Virus record (IMG/VR): IMGVR_UViG_3300049595_001059
Location: 1-36,988 of that record
Direction: 5' to 3' (one strand)
Length of the DNA stretch: 36,988 nucleotides
Origin: a virus
Part shown: piece by piece, positions 13,327 to 30,042 of the stretch
Layout of the letters: each line of letters begins with the position of its first letter
How positions within the stretch are numbered: the first letter of the stretch is position 1
Translations under genes and position numbers: made by a program
The notes under the pieces: model-generated
Databases searched by the model: none
What the model was told of the DNA's origin: nothing
The model's input: only the letters and a program-made list of their open reading frames with translations

Positions 13327-15344
13327 GGAAGTAGTTTATTAGAGCGTAATTCAAATTCTGCGCCCTTGCGCATTACAGATTGTATATTAATGGTTTTAAT
13401 GTAGGTAGGTATAACCGCTAAACTATCGTCGCGCCTACCTAATAAAATAGGCTTCGACGTTTCGCTTGTTATAGCGTTTATTTCTGCCATTGTAAGCGGG
13501 CGGCTAAACTTATATAGGTAGTTTTGAACGTCGTTAATATCTACGGGGTTAAGTTCCTCATCTGGGTTATCGGGGTTTAACGGTACGCCGTCAATAGAAA
13601 CAAAAGAATAGCGCGTAACCCCCGATAGAACTATGTTATCTAATAATCGCTCAGTTAATGAATTATATAAAATTGGTATAGTATAATTTACTTCAGCATC
13701 AATACGAATTAAGTCGCCTTGGTTGCAAAGAAATGAAGTCGAAGCGGGTATAATAACATCGCCCGCGCCCGTGTCGGTAAATAGCGTGCCGTAATAATCT
13801 TCTATTTCGTTATCGTTAGCGTCAAACCTAACAATACGGGCGCGGCTTTGTCGGTTTCTATTGCCTGCTTCGTTTGGTTCTAAAAAGCCATAAATTAACT
13901 CGGTGCTTATAGTGTATATTCCTGTAAACGGGCAAGTGTATTTAATACCGTCGAATAGGTTGTTAGGGTCGTTATATTGGTCGTTAAATTGAATATAGTC
14001 GCCTACAAAATCAGAGTATAAACTAGGGGTGTTAACATCGACCGCCCACGTTTGCGCATCGTTATTTATACGCGCATCTAATACCGTTTGAGCTGGGTTA
14101 AACGGCTGCGTTAAAAACGAGAATAACGAGTTAGGGTAACCATTAAGCCAATTAGCCGAAACGCTTATATTTCTATAATTACCGTTATAAACCGTTTGCC
14201 CTAGCGAATAAGGGTCGTAAGTTTTGGCGATTAACCTAAACGCCCCTATTGTTGGTGCTTCGCATTGTATAACAAAATTCGATTGGTCGAAGCTAGGGTT
14301 ATCAAAAACTATTACGTCCTCAATTACATTTGTATCGAATATTATATTTTCTGTTGCAACGCTTAAAACGTTAGGGCTGTTACATTCACCAACGAAGCCA
14401 AACGTTTCTTCCCTAAAGCCCCTAAACGGCGTTTGTACGAACGTGCAGCCCGTATTACCGCTATCGCATTCGGCTTGTTCAAAGTATGGAGAATTGCCAA
14501 ATTCGATTGAAGCGTAAAGCCTGCTAGTATCGAACTTCATTTCTATTTCTGGTTGGTCGAATAGGTTAACGCTCGCGCTAGTTTGTTGAAAATAGCTAAT
14601 AGGCTCTATTCTTAATAACGGTCGCCCGTTGGCTTGTTTCTCGAAACCTATACCTAAATTTAATTTAGTGCGCATGGCGTTGTATAGTTCTTCAAAGTTA
14701 GCCGTCATTTCTAAAGGTACGGCGGTTCTAATTGTTAGCCCTTGTGTATATGCGGGTATGTTATCAGAGGTGTTATTATAAGCAAAGTAATTACTATCGA
14801 AGTCTACTAGGTTATCGCTCATGCAATTCACTAAATGCCTAAATACATCATATAACGCGTAGCCGTATGCGTTAGGGCTTATTATTGCACCAGTTGACGG
14901 CGTGAATAATACTAGGCTATAAATAGGGGGCGGCGTTATCGGTTGCCCGTTTTTGGTTTGCGTGAGTTGGAGCGAAAACGGTATGCTTTTATTATTGTTT
15001 ATTTTGGTGCTAAATGTTTCGTCGTATAGCTTCGTTTTAACTTGGCAGCGGTCTAAAATAAAAGTACACTCAGTAGCTATTATATAGCCGTCAACTAATT
15101 TAACCCACGTACCCGAAGCGCAAATATATTGCACCGTTACGCGCACCAATTCACAATAGCCGCCTACTTCTAATTTAGTGTAAAGATAATCGTAAACGTC
15201 GCCGCCAAAGGTTAGCTCGTTTTCAAACGATACAACCCGCGCCCCTATACCATCGTCCTCGTTAATATTTATACTAAAGTCCTCAGGGTTTAACGGTTGC
15301 CCACGGTCTAAGCCGTCGATTAAAAACTTTAATTCTATTGCCAT
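13323..15344 (-). CDS. Large distal-tail protein downstream of the tape measure
   Basis: A 673-residue protein whose N-terminus (MAIELKFLIDG) and beta-rich fold suit a distal tail or baseplate hub component. It overlaps the tape measure gene by 10 bp and the next tail gene by 4 bp. In siphoviruses the genes after the tape measure encode Dit and Tal, and this is the best candidate for that role, though no endopeptidase motif is visible. Middle and C-terminal sections (about 330-560) contain beta-sandwich-like stretches with many Asn, Tyr and Asp. No membrane segments. Confidence 0.6.
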   Translation of the reverse strand: MAIELKFLIDGLDRGQPLNPEDFSININEDDGIGARVVSFENELTFGGDVYDYLYTKLEVGGYCELVRVTVQYICASGTWVKLVDGYIIATECTFILDRCQVKTKLYDETFSTKINNNKSIPFSLQLTQTKNGQPITPPPIYSLVLFTPSTGAIISPNAYGYALYDVFRHLVNCMSDNLVDFDSNYFAYNNTSDNIPAYTQGLTIRTAVPLEMTANFEELYNAMRTKLNLGIGFEKQANGRPLLRIEPISYFQQTSASVNLFDQPEIEMKFDTSRLYASIEFGNSPYFEQAECDSGNTGCTFVQTPFRGFREETFGFVGECNSPNVLSVATENIIFDTNVIEDVIVFDNPSFDQSNFVIQCEAPTIGAFRLIAKTYDPYSLGQTVYNGNYRNISVSANWLNGYPNSLFSFLTQPFNPAQTVLDARINNDAQTWAVDVNTPSLYSDFVGDYIQFNDQYNDPNNLFDGIKYTCPFTGIYTISTELIYGFLEPNEAGNRNRQSRARIVRFDANDNEIEDYYGTLFTDTGAGDVIIPASTSFLCNQGDLIRIDAEVNYTIPILYNSLTERLLDNIVLSGVTRYSFVSIDGVPLNPDNPDEELNPVDINDVQNYLYKFSRPLTMAEINAITSETSKPILLGRRDDSLAVIPTYIKTINIQSVMRKGAEFELRSNKLLP

Positions 15345-23579: not shown

Positions 23580-24956
23580 TTAAAAGGGCGTTAGTTCTTC
23601 GTCAAAGGTAGTATTTATAGGCATAGGCGCAAAGGTGCTGCCGCCGCTCGTTGCAATATCGCTAAAGCTGGTTATCGTGCTATTATGCTTAAAGCGTACT
23701 TCACCCGTCGAGCCTTGACGGTGTTTCTCGAATAGGTAAAAAACGTCGGAGCTATACGGGTTTCCGAGTTCGTCGTTTAGCGCGTAGTATTCGGGGCGGT
23801 AAATAAATATAACCGTGTCGGCGTCCTGTTCTATCGAGCCGCTTTCGCGTAAGTCCGAAAGTATCGGGCGTTTATCCGCTCGCTGCTCTACTTGCCGAGA
23901 TAGCTGCGCAAGGGCTATAACAGGTATATTAAGCTCCTTTTGCGCGGCTTTTAACGTTCGGCTTATTTCGGCTACTTCAGCCTCGCGGTTGCCGCCTCTG
24001 AAGCCCTCTATTGTCATTAACTGCAAATAGTCGATAATAACCCATTTACAATTACCCTTGCGGGCTTCGCGGCGCATAACACGTATAGCTTCATGTACGC
24101 CGCAGCGCGGCTTATCGTAAATAAGAAAGGGCAAATTTTCGACCGTTCCTATCGTAGTTTCGAATGCGTGTAATTCGGGCTGCGTTAAATTGCCGTCGCG
24201 TAGGCGTGCGCTGTTTATCCTTTCGCTCGAATGCTGAAGTATTAAGCGCTGGCAAAGCTGGCTCTTATTCATTTCAAGGTTAAAGTATATACCCGGCTCA
24301 TTAAAATTGCAGGCGTGATATAATGCGAGCGCTGTTTTACCCATCGAAGGGCGACCCGCTAGTATTATTAATTCGGGGTGAAAACCGCCCGTAAATCTAT
24401 TTAACGCGCTTAACCCTGTATTCAATCCGCTTGTTTTTCCGCTTTGGTGTAGTTCAGCGCGGCGGTAATACGCCTGCCGTTCTTCGTGCGCTAGGGTTAT
24501 GGTGTCGAGCATATTATCGTTTGAAGCGCCGTCCTCAAGTAGCGTGTTAAGGCGTTTAATTATTTCGGCTGCGGTTTGAGCGCCGCCGCGTAAACCGCTA
24601 AACTCTAGAGAGGCTTCGACCATTACCGAGCTTATTTGGCGCTTAATATGTTCGTCCTTTAGTATTGCTATATAATCGTTTACGGGCTGGTTAAAATAAA
24701 ATTCGTCGCCCCAGCTTGTAATAGCTGAAAGGTCTGAACCTGTAAATGTTTTTTCGACGCGCCCGAATTGCGCTAATGTTATTAGCGTGGGCTGCTTGTT
24801 ATCTGCTATTATGTTTTTTATCGTTTTAAAGCATTTTAACGCTAGTTCGTCTTTAAAGTGGTGTTCAGATAGCTGCGGTATAATTTCGCGCCATGTATCG
24901 TCGTTTAAAAGCGAAATATAAATTAAGGCTTGTTCTATTTTCGGAAGCGGTTTCAT
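23580..24956 (-). CDS. dnaB: Replicative DNA helicase, DnaB type
   Basis: A 458-residue hexameric helicase. N-terminal helical domain (about 1-145) for primase/loader contact, then the RecA-like core: Walker A GRPSMGKT at 201-208, Walker B IIDYLQLM at 307-314, QLSR at 351-354 and DLRESGSIEQDAD at 368-380. The overall length matches DnaB. It lies downstream of the replication initiator-like gene and the 64-residue protein; a hairpin at 24970-24988 precedes its start. Confidence 0.92.
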   Translation of the reverse strand: MKPLPKIEQALIYISLLNDDTWREIIPQLSEHHFKDELALKCFKTIKNIIADNKQPTLITLAQFGRVEKTFTGSDLSAITSWGDEFYFNQPVNDYIAILKDEHIKRQISSVMVEASLEFSGLRGGAQTAAEIIKRLNTLLEDGASNDNMLDTITLAHEERQAYYRRAELHQSGKTSGLNTGLSALNRFTGGFHPELIILAGRPSMGKTALALYHACNFNEPGIYFNLEMNKSQLCQRLILQHSSERINSARLRDGNLTQPELHAFETTIGTVENLPFLIYDKPRCGVHEAIRVMRREARKGNCKWVIIDYLQLMTIEGFRGGNREAEVAEISRTLKAAQKELNIPVIALAQLSRQVEQRADKRPILSDLRESGSIEQDADTVIFIYRPEYYALNDELGNPYSSDVFYLFEKHRQGSTGEVRFKHNSTITSFSDIATSGGSTFAPMPINTTFDEELTPF

Positions 24957-25276: not shown

Positions 25277-25864
25277 TTATTCCATTTTAACGCCCCTCGA
25301 AGCCCGCGTAAGCGTTGGCGCGGTTTGTGGTTGTTTAGAGGCGTCGCGTTTATTCCATGTGCTTAGCCTGCGTTTAGTGTCCCAAGCTGTTTGAGCGGTT
25401 AAACGTATCTTACCGTTTGGCATTGGTTCGCTCCAGTATTCATAAAAGGCGTTTAGCATTTCGCGGTTAAACATATCCTTAAACGGCTTCATACTTTCTA
25501 TTAACTCTTTAGCGCCCCACTTTTTAAAGTTCGCGTTAGCGTTATCCTTATATTTATCCTTATCCTTATCCTTATCTTTATAGGCTTCGGGTTCGCTTTT
25601 AATTCGCTTCAAGTTCGCTTCGTTTTCGCTTCCGTTTCGCTTCGCTTTGGGTTTGCTTCCGTTTATATAGTTAGTGTTTCCTTTCGTTAATACAGGCTCG
25701 ATTAATAGCCATACTGTTTCTGAAATACCGCTTAATTCCTTAACTTCAAAATCTAGCGAATAGCTAAATATAGCGTCGTAAATTTCCGCTTGTGTTTCCT
25801 TTGGCAGCTTTCGTATAGCTTCAAACATGGAGCGGTAAAATATGCAGGTATCGCGTTTATTCAT
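25277..25864 (-). CDS. Replication initiator / helicase-loader-like protein
   Basis: A 195-residue protein. The N-terminus (about 1-65: FYRSMFEAIRKLPKETQAEI, then a winged-helix-like region with a PVLTKGN motif) resembles the DUF6291-type domain found in Bacteroidota phage replication modules, which I recall by pattern. The centre is a charged, disordered linker with a KDKDKDK stretch. A C-terminal helical part contains a YW motif. Neighbours are the DnaB helicase and single-strand-binding-like protein. The iteron-like DNA array lies within its linker codons, as the lambda O gene carries the origin. Its leader is the structured region 25868-25983. Confidence 0.65.
   Translation of the reverse strand: MNKRDTCIFYRSMFEAIRKLPKETQAEIYDAIFSYSLDFEVKELSGISETVWLLIEPVLTKGNTNYINGSKPKAKRNGSENEANLKRIKSEPEAYKDKDKDKDKYKDNANANFKKWGAKELIESMKPFKDMFNREMLNAFYEYWSEPMPNGKIRLTAQTAWDTKRRLSTWNKRDASKQPQTAPTLTRASRGVKME
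25542..25577 (-). repeat. 6-bp tandem repeat TTATCC (minus: GGATAA)
   Basis: Six units at exact 6-bp spacing (25542, 25548, 25554, 25560, 25566, 25572): four are TTATCC, one TTATAT and the last TTATCT. It encodes the KD-rich linker, so protein and DNA repetition cannot be separated here. It adjoins the iteron-like array at 25592-25658. Confidence 0.85.
25592..25658. repeat. Iteron-like array: TTCGCTT at 11-bp period
   Basis: TTCGCTT is exact at 25592, 25603, 25614, 25625 and 25636, each 11 bp apart. A further copy at 25641 overlaps, and a one-mismatch copy (TTTGCTT) lies 11 bp later at 25652. The period is one turn of B-DNA and is not a multiple of three, so the repetition is not explained by the protein. 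Direct repeats with helical phasing inside a replication gene are typical of initiator-binding sites. Candidate origin of replication. Confidence 0.8.
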
Positions 25865-25867
25865 GTT

Positions 25868-25983
25868 AAAAAAAATTGCCCTTTAGCGGCTGCGGTCGAA
25901 GCGGGCGTGCTATTACCTACACCCTCGCAGCCCCCAAAGGGCTTTAAAATTTTTAAAGCTATATTCAGGCTTCGACCTCTGAA
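25868..25983 (-). promoter_or_regulatory. Structured leader: pseudoknot plus terminator-like hairpin (attenuator candidate)
   Basis: On the minus strand, from about 25983 downward: GGTCGAAGC (25977-25969); an AU hairpin (25959-25941, nearly perfect palindrome); arm GCCCTTTGGGGGCTGCG (25942-25926); loop; GCTTCGACC (25902-25894), complementary to the first segment over 9 nt; arm CGCAGCCGCTAAAGGGC (25894-25878), pairing with the first arm at 15 of 17 positions plus one G-U; then a U-run starting two bases later, and the initiator ATG at 25864. The terminator loop segment and the 5' segment can pair. Both mismatches are worse on the plus strand, supporting a minus-strand RNA. A weak -7 box, TATCTTTA, lies at 25995-25988. 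Confidence 0.7.
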
Positions 25984-26003
25984 CGCTTAAAGATACTAAA
26001 AAT

Positions 26004-26258
26004 TTACCTACAAATAACGGTTGTTTTAGTAACGTACTCTTTGCCGTTAATAACCGTCGTTGTAGTGGTCGTTGTTTCGTCAACGTAGCGCCTAATTTGC
26101 CCCGCTGTCATATTGCATTTTTCGACGATAACGGTCGGCTCGCTTTGGTTATTACCGTATGGGTTTGTCGTCTTACTCATTACGCGGCATTCATAACATT
26201 TTTTGCAGCTCGTAAAGGTTAGCGCGGCTGCGGCGCATAGGGTGTAAATTGTTTTCAT
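26004..26258 (-). CDS. Small secreted lipoprotein with paired cysteines
   Basis: The start at ATG 26258 places a lipoprotein signal peptide at the N-terminus (MKTIYTLCAAAALTFTSC; lipobox cysteine 18), better than an ATG 27 bp upstream. The mature part begins CKKCYEC and has further Cys, a Thr-rich run and an ITV-rich C-terminus, about 67 residues. Bacteroidota proteins with C-x2-C-x2-C beginnings are known as small lipoproteins. A phage-coded surface lipoprotein may block superinfection or alter the envelope, but that is conjecture. It begins 4 bp after the methyltransferase stop. Confidence 0.7.
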   Translation of the reverse strand: MKTIYTLCAAAALTFTSCKKCYECRVMSKTTNPYGNNQSEPTVIVEKCNMTAGQIRRYVDETTTTTTTVINGKEYVTKTTVICR

Positions 26259-26262
26259 AGTT

Positions 26263-27249
26263 TTAAAATAATTCAGGTTGTTCAAATTTTTGAAAACGGC
26301 TATTAACCTCTTTTAAATTAATTATAGCCTGTTTAAAATAGCTATCCTTTAGCTCAATACCGATAGCCTTTCTACCCATAGATACAGGGCTATAAACCTC
26401 GCTACCTACTCCCATAAAAGGCGTCAATACCGTTTCTCCGGGGTTAGTGTATAAATATACTAGCCTATCAATTACGTCTAATTGCAAGGGGTGTACGTGC
26501 TTTTCGTCGTCTTCTTCGCGACTATCTTTAAATTGTAACACGTTATCTATCCTTACATCGTCCCAAACGCTCGAAGCGTACCGCTGCCATGTTAAATGCG
26601 ATAGTTTATTTTCGCGTTGGTCGCCGCTAAACTTTGCCCACTTTTTCCTAAAGTCTGAATAATTGCCGTAGGTTTCTTCGTGCGCTTTTAAAAATGGGTT
26701 TTCGCCAAAATACTCGAAGTCGTTTAAGCCGTTAGGGTGCTGAACGGGCGTATCTGTTTCGCCCGACTTTTTAAATATTAATACATAGTCAGGCATCGCA
26801 GTAAAACAGCGTGTAGCATCTTCGACTATAAATTTGTGCATTAAGCTCTGAACCATTGTACGCATACGAACCTTTAGCGGCTCTTTCCAAATTGTTATAC
26901 GGTTATGGTATTGCATACCGTATTTTTCGTGTAACCGTATTACTTCGCCGGGAAAATCCCAAAGCCTACCCGTATTTGTATGTACGTCGGTAACATGTAC
27001 GGCGTTAATTCTACCGGGTTTAGTTACCCGCGCCATTTCTTTAATTAAAAATTCGTATTGCTCTAAAAATTGCTCTTTAGTTTCGCAGTTGCTAAAGTCG
27101 TTTTCGTGTGAGCTGTAATTGTAAAGCCCTGCAAACGGCGGAGAATACACCGAAAAATCAATGCTATTCTCAGGCATTTGAGAAATTACATACATACAAT
27201 CGCTATTATAAATAGCGTAGTCCTCTGTTACTTTTTGTTGTTTTACCAT
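26263..27249 (-). CDS. Site-specific DNA methyltransferase (beta class)
   Basis: A 328-residue enzyme with the catalytic motif SPPF at 36-39 before the SAM motif TPFMGVGSE at 276-284, followed by GIEL at 297-300. This order marks beta-class amino methyltransferases. SPP(F/Y) is most common in N4-cytosine enzymes, while N6-adenine remains possible. A large central segment, about 100-230, carries target recognition. No cognate endonuclease is next to it, so it may protect phage DNA or interact with the SNF2 helicase encoded just upstream. It starts 5 bp after the helicase stop. Confidence 0.85.
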   Translation of the reverse strand: MVKQQKVTEDYAIYNSDCMYVISQMPENSIDFSVYSPPFAGLYNYSSHENDFSNCETKEQFLEQYEFLIKEMARVTKPGRINAVHVTDVHTNTGRLWDFPGEVIRLHEKYGMQYHNRITIWKEPLKVRMRTMVQSLMHKFIVEDATRCFTAMPDYVLIFKKSGETDTPVQHPNGLNDFEYFGENPFLKAHEETYGNYSDFRKKWAKFSGDQRENKLSHLTWQRYASSVWDDVRIDNVLQFKDSREEDDEKHVHPLQLDVIDRLVYLYTNPGETVLTPFMGVGSEVYSPVSMGRKAIGIELKDSYFKQAIINLKEVNSRFQKFEQPELF

Positions 27250-29473: not shown

Positions 29474-30042
29474 AAGCTCTGAAAGTATTTAGAAATTAAT
29501 TGTTTCGCGTGTTCGATTTCTTCGGGCTTGTGGCGGTATAAATAAAGGTCGGTAAATCGCCCAGTTTGTTTCACCTTTGGCGGTATGCCTATGTAGAAGA
29601 ATAGCGCCGGGTCGAAGCCCATTAGCAACGAATACCAAACCGCCTGTACGTGGTTAAGGTGTTTAATCATATCGTGCGCAAAGGCTTGTATTGTACCCGC
29701 GCTCGTTGTTTTAACATCGGCTATAATACCCTCGCTTAACCAACACAAATCGAACATGCCTTTAGCCTCACGCTCGATGCCGTCCACGTTAACACTACCG
29801 AGTTTAATATATTCCTTTTCGGAGTTTATAAACAGCTGCGCTAATAATGGCAGCTCGTTTATAGCGGTGTAAACGTTTTGCACGGGCGGCGGCATATTAA
29901 CGAAAGGTTGTTCTAATAGTTGGTAGTGAAACGCCGCGCCCGCATCGAGCGCCGTTTGGGCGTAGCTTATATCGCCCGTATAAAAACGTTTGATACGGCT
30001 TGCGCTCGTTGCGGGGTGCTTAATGTATTGCTCGCGGGTCAT
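29470..30042 (-). CDS. PD-(D/E)XK exonuclease-like protein
   Basis: The start at ATG 30042 is decided by GGGAGG seven bases upstream and by a TAATG overlap with the regulator stop; an upstream ATG at 30057 would use neither. The 190-residue product has GMFDLCW with D98 and ADVKTTS with D109 and K111, the metal site of lambda-exonuclease/YqaJ/Cas4-like nucleases. It may work with the SSB-like and recombination-like proteins at DNA ends. Confidence 0.8.
   Translation of the reverse strand: MTREQYIKHPATSASRIKRFYTGDISYAQTALDAGAAFHYQLLEQPFVNMPPPVQNVYTAINELPLLAQLFINSEKEYIKLGSVNVDGIEREAKGMFDLCWLSEGIIADVKTTSAGTIQAFAHDMIKHLNHVQAVWYSLLMGFDPALFFYIGIPPKVKQTGRFTDLYLYRHKPEEIEHAKQLISKYFQSL

Follow-up and report, generated by a model that had tools for sequence, protein, structure and literature searches.

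A hypervariable pseudoknot in a leader RNA at the head of viral replication operons

The window analysed here is a 36,988-nucleotide stretch of viral DNA (IMG/VR record IMGVR_UViG_3300049595_001059). Its sequence and relatives place a folded RNA of ~115 nt on the minus strand at 25868–25984, directly before replication genes. The first downstream gene (25277–25864, minus strand; ATG at 25864) encodes a 195-residue DUF6291 protein (Pfam PF19808, E=6e-14), and a DnaB-type helicase (23580–24956, minus strand; PF03796, E=2e-80) belongs to the same operon. The DUF6291 protein matches only PHROGs of unknown function, and no paper on DUF6291 was found in the open-licence literature; its description as replication-initiator-like rests on its relatives and its position. 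Directly upstream of the RNA lies a gene for a small protein (26007–26258, minus strand) that starts with MKTIYTLCAAAALTFTSCKKCYEC, a lipoprotein-like signal, and quite a few relatives have similar small genes immediately 5′ of the RNA.

The leader begins with a 5′ hairpin, hp1 (25963–25984, minus strand), whose six base pairs (25984–25979 with 25968–25963) enclose a 10-nt loop carrying the 5′ strand of helix P1, GTCGAAGC (25969–25976). This strand pairs with the P1 3′ strand, GCTTCGAC (25895–25902, minus strand). An A-rich linker (25943–25962, minus strand), in the window partly a 19-nt AU palindrome, GCTTTAAAAATTTTAAAGC (25959–25941), leads into P2, the predicted terminator stem. P2 pairs a 5′ arm (25926–25942) with a 3′ arm (25878–25894, both minus strand) over 17 positions, 25942–25926 with 25894–25878, comprising 15 Watson–Crick pairs, a G-U pair (25935/25885) and a G-G mismatch (25933/25887). 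The P3 hairpin (25903–25924, minus strand; 25924–25919 with 25908–25903) lies between the P2 5′ arm and the P1 3′ strand, and the latter abuts the P2 3′ arm with no spacer. The U-run of the predicted intrinsic terminator is eight T (25868–25875, minus strand), and a T-rich tail is conserved in relatives. P1 crosses both hp1 and P2, giving a real pseudoknot order; with the pseudoknot left out, the leader still has a folding energy of −44.6 kcal/mol (z = −3.7 against chance). The original prediction had described the 17-position stem with this composition and the U-run before the start codon, and all of its elements were found on the minus strand where it had placed them; hp1, P3 and a −7 promoter box just upstream are additions to it.

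A search of IMG/VR with the DUF6291 protein yielded 34 loci, among which 18 complete upstream regions carry the RNA, either with another P1 word or changed elsewhere; in two of these 18 leaders a small gene lies between the RNA and DUF6291. Further relatives were added by DNA patterns for hp1 and P2. A covariance model of 54 representatives, from which the P1 pairs were left out, then gave 98 and ~66 strong matches in two locus sets, or ~165 viral loci, some of which overlap on one contig. True matches score 70–123 bits, while the next best (≤36 bits) are opposite-strand echoes of true sites. A single strong copy is present in each of 12 positive genomes scanned whole, and likewise in the window. 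Portions of hp1 or P2 were specified in the patterns, and both A25978, invariant in the alignment, and exact P1 complementarity were conditions of the first descriptor; for this last reason the model without P1 pairs is the test that counts for P1. That model and the 18 leaders found via the protein alone are free of the exact-P1 demand, with a mild bias remaining in that the model was trained on descriptor-selected sequences.

Across the 54 distinct sequences, 94.6% of cells are paired and double changes occur in 26 of 36 pairs. The covariation score is 0.437 as against 0.171 in shuffles, and none of 500 shuffles reaches any of the measures; when partners were slid by 1–3 columns as a control, pairing dropped to 30–44%. 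By helix, hp1 has 98.5% of cells paired with double changes in 5/6 pairs, P2 92.6% with 12/17, and P3 88% with 4/5. Covariation among homologous leaders, the absence of which had been set beforehand as the refuting outcome, is present in hp1, P1, P2 and P3 and establishes the fold; the nested order of segments (A, B, A′, B′) proposed for the window is thereby borne out as a true pseudoknot. An ordinary terminator of the upstream operon with some chance complementarity would account for P2 and the U-run, which look like a strong intrinsic terminator. Such an arrangement is already refuted by the covariation of hp1, P1 and P3 and by their retention in more than 100 distinct sequences, and it deserves practically no credence. 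The strand is also as predicted: alignment A1 contains 141 G-U cells against 23 A-C cells on the minus strand, so the helices have been selected as RNA of this strand. The AU palindrome, correctly seen in the window, proved not to be conserved and is lineage-specific, whereas the A-rich core of the linker is kept in relatives. P3 is interrupted in many relatives by an A-rich internal loop, often AA/GA, close to the P1–P2 junction (A1 columns 61–88; window 25925–25903, minus strand). This loop, absent from the P3 of the window, is a possible site of protein binding or tertiary contact.

At the 5′ side of the leader, a −7-type promoter box, TATCTTTA, lies at 25988–25995 on the minus strand. A TAnnTTnR box is found upstream of hp1 in all 100 distinct relatives, 79 with TAnnTTnG and 21 ending in A as in the window; TAnnTTnG occurs in 10% of shuffled 35-mers. 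The box usually begins 12–14 nt before hp1. In Flavobacterium psychrophilum the −7 box is located at −12 to −5 (PMC9723704), and this spacing would set the transcript start at about the first base of hp1 (predicted ~25983–25984). No clear −33 element was found upstream of the −7 box, and a same-strand stop codon lies upstream close to the RNA in 87/92 relatives, where a gene of that strand usually ends shortly ahead of the leader. An antisense promoter was considered and rejected, since no opposite-strand box of the TAnnTTnG type over the leader is conserved among relatives. At the 3′ side, the start codon follows the T-run by 0–14 nt in 97 of the 98 relatives scored. This leaves no space for a promoter between the U-run and the start codon, so transcription arriving from the leader's own promoter or from further upstream has to cross the terminator to reach the gene.

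The type of promoter box, together with methyltransferase-gene similarity to Flavobacterium phages, suggests that the hosts are probably Bacteroidota. The DNA methyltransferase gene of the window (26263–27249, minus strand) has ~77% DNA identity over part of its length to the Flavobacterium phages hattifnatt and snusmum; it is similar also to a phage named for Rhodobacteraceae, the true host of which is perhaps questionable. A blastn search with the leader and 13 variants against 50,697 phages produced no real match, nor did one with the leader against plasmids. The core pattern had no real match in 84,980 bacterial and archaeal genomes, where one chance match, in Labrenzia, lacked the structure, and four annotated phages scanned with the covariance model reached at best 23 bits, far under true matches. 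As real matches are missing from bacterial and archaeal genomes and from GenBank phages, the phages that carry the RNA seem to be uncultured and probably virulent.

In relatives, the gene following the RNA is mostly initiator-like, of DUF6291 or winged-helix-like types, and the first genes match PHROGs for O-like replication initiation, DnaD-like and replisome organizer proteins. This initiator-like gene either adjoins the RNA or is separated from it by one small gene; DnaB usually comes next. The initiator-like proteins at this place (cluster 0) form a mosaic family, with differing N-terminal domains (DUF6291 or winged-helix-like) and similar C-terminal parts. A minority of relatives have BT4734-like/DUF5906 (VapE-like) modules behind the RNA, VapE-like/primase modules included. 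At six loci (L097, L184, L221, L231, L257 and L274) the RNA precedes BT4734-like, DUF5906/VapE-like or helicase genes with no recognised DnaB nearby. The leader thus appears to be common to different, non-homologous replication modules, and it marks the start of replication operons whatever their proteins. Because the same RNA precedes several different first genes, control is not tied to a single initiator; the proposed link to replication control holds for the place of the leader at the operon head in relatives, but the tie to one initiator gene does not. The presence of the RNA before replication modules of different kinds might also be expected of an origin transcript, or of an RNA that primes phage DNA replication as ColE1 RNAII does, although the RNA ends in a predicted terminator and the window shows no change of skew at this position, making this role very improbable.

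The helix P1 is the unusual part of the leader, being hypervariable yet perfectly paired. In the window, GGTCGAAGC (25977–25969) is the exact complement of GCTTCGACC (25902–25894), as had been noted. The ninth pair (25977/25894) is nonetheless not conserved: position 25977 is G, C or A with no compensating change, and C25894 has G25926 as its partner in P2, which leaves a family P1 of 8 bp. All eight pairs are Watson–Crick, with zero G-U, in 121/121 distinct sequences found by the model without P1 pairs. Four pairs are nearly fixed (G-C/C-G, U-A, A-U and C-G) and four are variable; on a DnaB tree the variable pairs change 20, 13, 24 and 17 times, always to Watson–Crick pairs, and turn over as often as the fastest linker columns. 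The whole P1 word changes 45 times on 65 tips against a shuffled mean of 46.6, and therefore carries no phylogenetic signal. A tie between the word and the initiator was likewise rejected, as the initiator tree requires 47 changes against 50.8 shuffled, again without signal. When RNAs with 93–97% similarity outside P1 are compared, differences per site amount to 0.19 in P1 and 0.05 in the rest, a ~4-fold excess, and ~20 P1 words recur in distant RNAs.

Such a pattern might be expected if the P1 word were a self-recognition code, by which terminated RNAs would bind leaders of equal word through the hp1 loop and the P1 3′ strand, providing replication feedback and interference on co-infection. 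The absence of signal on either tree, the repeated changes with Watson–Crick pairing kept and the faster divergence of P1 among close RNAs would all suit a code of this kind. There is also an analogy with plasmid incompatibility set by loop sequences: in I-complex plasmids, one change in the loop region of the antisense RNA decides compatibility (PMC10724649). However, phages from the same sample share P1 words in 6 of 46 cases (13%), as often as all pairs do (13%). There is thus neither avoidance nor excess sharing, and the idea that co-occurring phages avoid each other's word was rejected. No antisense transcript is evident, and a meeting of RNAs in trans is purely hypothetical. A recognition code is accordingly regarded as a doubtful explanation of the leader.

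Three further exact copies of GGTCGAAGC lie in the window at 14285–14293 (plus strand), 24613–24621 (minus strand) and 29610–29618 (plus strand), where ~0.11 would be expected in all from dinucleotide shuffles. The P1 words of relatives are not enriched in their own nearby genes (12 found against 15.8 expected), and additional copies of the word were for this reason rejected as trans targets. This lack of enrichment bears on the possibility that the leader is a free-standing small RNA, bounded by a promoter and a terminator of its own, whose targets in trans would be RNA of host or phage or a protein, while the operon is read by leak-through. The defined ends, the compact fold, a structure that far exceeds the needs of a terminator and the varying downstream gene all agree with such a role. 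A free-standing RNA, on the other hand, would not need a start codon within 0–14 nt of the T-run (97/98), dense as phage genomes are, and the P1 word finds no enriched partners nearby. A trans-acting RNA is considered unlikely, although it is a better candidate than the recognition code.

Comparison with known systems places the leader close to several of them in its working. The leaders of pT181 repC and pIP501 repR are attenuators in which an RNA from the opposite strand decides termination. The phage leader shares with them a predicted intrinsic terminator before a replication gene and possibly competing structures, but has no conserved antisense TAnnTTnG box and carries both complementary segments in one RNA. 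As in riboswitch and T-box attenuators, a terminator in a leader RNA possibly competes with another fold, but no ligand-binding core is recognised and one helix is hypervariable rather than conserved. A search of Rfam 15 at gathering and relaxed thresholds gave no meaningful match for the leader, and none above the curated gathering threshold. HDV-like ribozymes resemble the leader in their crossing helices, in how the two main strands are ordered and in the intervening hairpin; here, the 3′ strands of the helices abut in a zero-nt joint, with no catalytic joining strand or P4, and a ribozyme of this class was rejected on this anatomy and the lack of an Rfam match. Type III toxin–antitoxin systems (ToxIN) also consist of a pseudoknot RNA, then a terminator, then a gene. 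They were rejected on anatomy as well, since the present RNA is single-copy, an array of repeats was not seen, and the protein downstream is DUF6291/replication-like, not ToxN. In the repZ leader of the I-complex (IncB/K/I), loop sequences diverge between related replicons (PMC10724649). There, too, a long-range pseudoknot or kissing pairing precedes a replication initiator, with RNAI as the antisense RNA. Control of repZ is translational and the antisense RNA is essential, whereas here the predicted transcription terminator belongs to the pseudoknot and the start codon comes after it. The leader resembles attenuators and kissing-loop replication controls in working but is not a member of those tested, and no description of it was found within the open-licence literature.

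On balance, the ~115-nt RNA is read, with modest confidence, as a transcription attenuator that heads the replication operon, with P1 as its switch element. A G+C-rich P2 stem running immediately into a U-run upstream of a same-strand gene is a feature that the RNA shares with attenuator leaders. The P2 5′ arm also folds on itself (~25943–25929), and in 54/54 sequences this local structure is more stable than −3 kcal/mol. The mean of this hairpin is −7.15 kcal/mol against −5.58 ± 0.19 kcal/mol for column-shuffled arms, although related sequences may surpass such shuffles, and covariation of the hairpin in a fixed register is weak. The need for read-through past the predicted terminator, the self-folding of the P2 5′ arm in all 54 sequences and the spacerless junction of P1 and P2 together lead us to prefer attenuation to a trans-acting RNA, and both to a word code. 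Helix covariation, the promoter box, start-codon spacing, the initiator/DnaB context, the G-U bias, the competing hairpin, single copy number and the lack of an Rfam match are also counted in favour of attenuation.

The proposed mechanism would begin with RNA polymerase starting at the TAnnTTTG-type promoter, a step taken from the motif, so that hp1 forms the 5′ end of the transcript. hp1 would fold first and display the P1 5′ strand in its loop, and the P2 5′ arm and P3 would be made next. On emerging, the P1 3′ strand would pair with the hp1 loop. Since no spacer separates this strand from the P2 3′ arm, P1 would stack on P2 and assist it in replacing the hairpin that its 5′ arm forms locally; the formation of P1 directly beside P2 suggests that P1 promotes P2. 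Most transcripts would then be terminated by P2 and the U-run a short way ahead of the start codon. Replication mRNA would result from read-through, if P1 or P2 forms too late or if the hp1 loop is occupied by something else. Unlike the fold, the use of the promoter, termination and its control, and the signal behind that control are features that we infer. Several points count against the attenuator. Different genes follow the RNA, and for this reason the regulation of any one protein fails to explain it; nor would a simple attenuator lead one to expect such fast turnover of P1. A constitutive terminator combined with a functional small RNA could not be told apart by sequence. The competing hairpin covaries weakly in a fixed register, and a promoter may lie inside the first gene.

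The leader is an uncatalogued, widespread RNA, small and easily synthesised, placed where phage replication switches on, and the covariance model can be used at once to annotate a large set of phages not yet cultured. P1 poses a sharp, testable question: whether its word is read by another RNA, or whether its compensatory change is driven otherwise. Were the word indeed a barcode, phages could sense the level of their own transcript and use the word to shut out or disregard relatives that co-infect. At the head of the replication operon, the RNA is probably a gate on phage replication.
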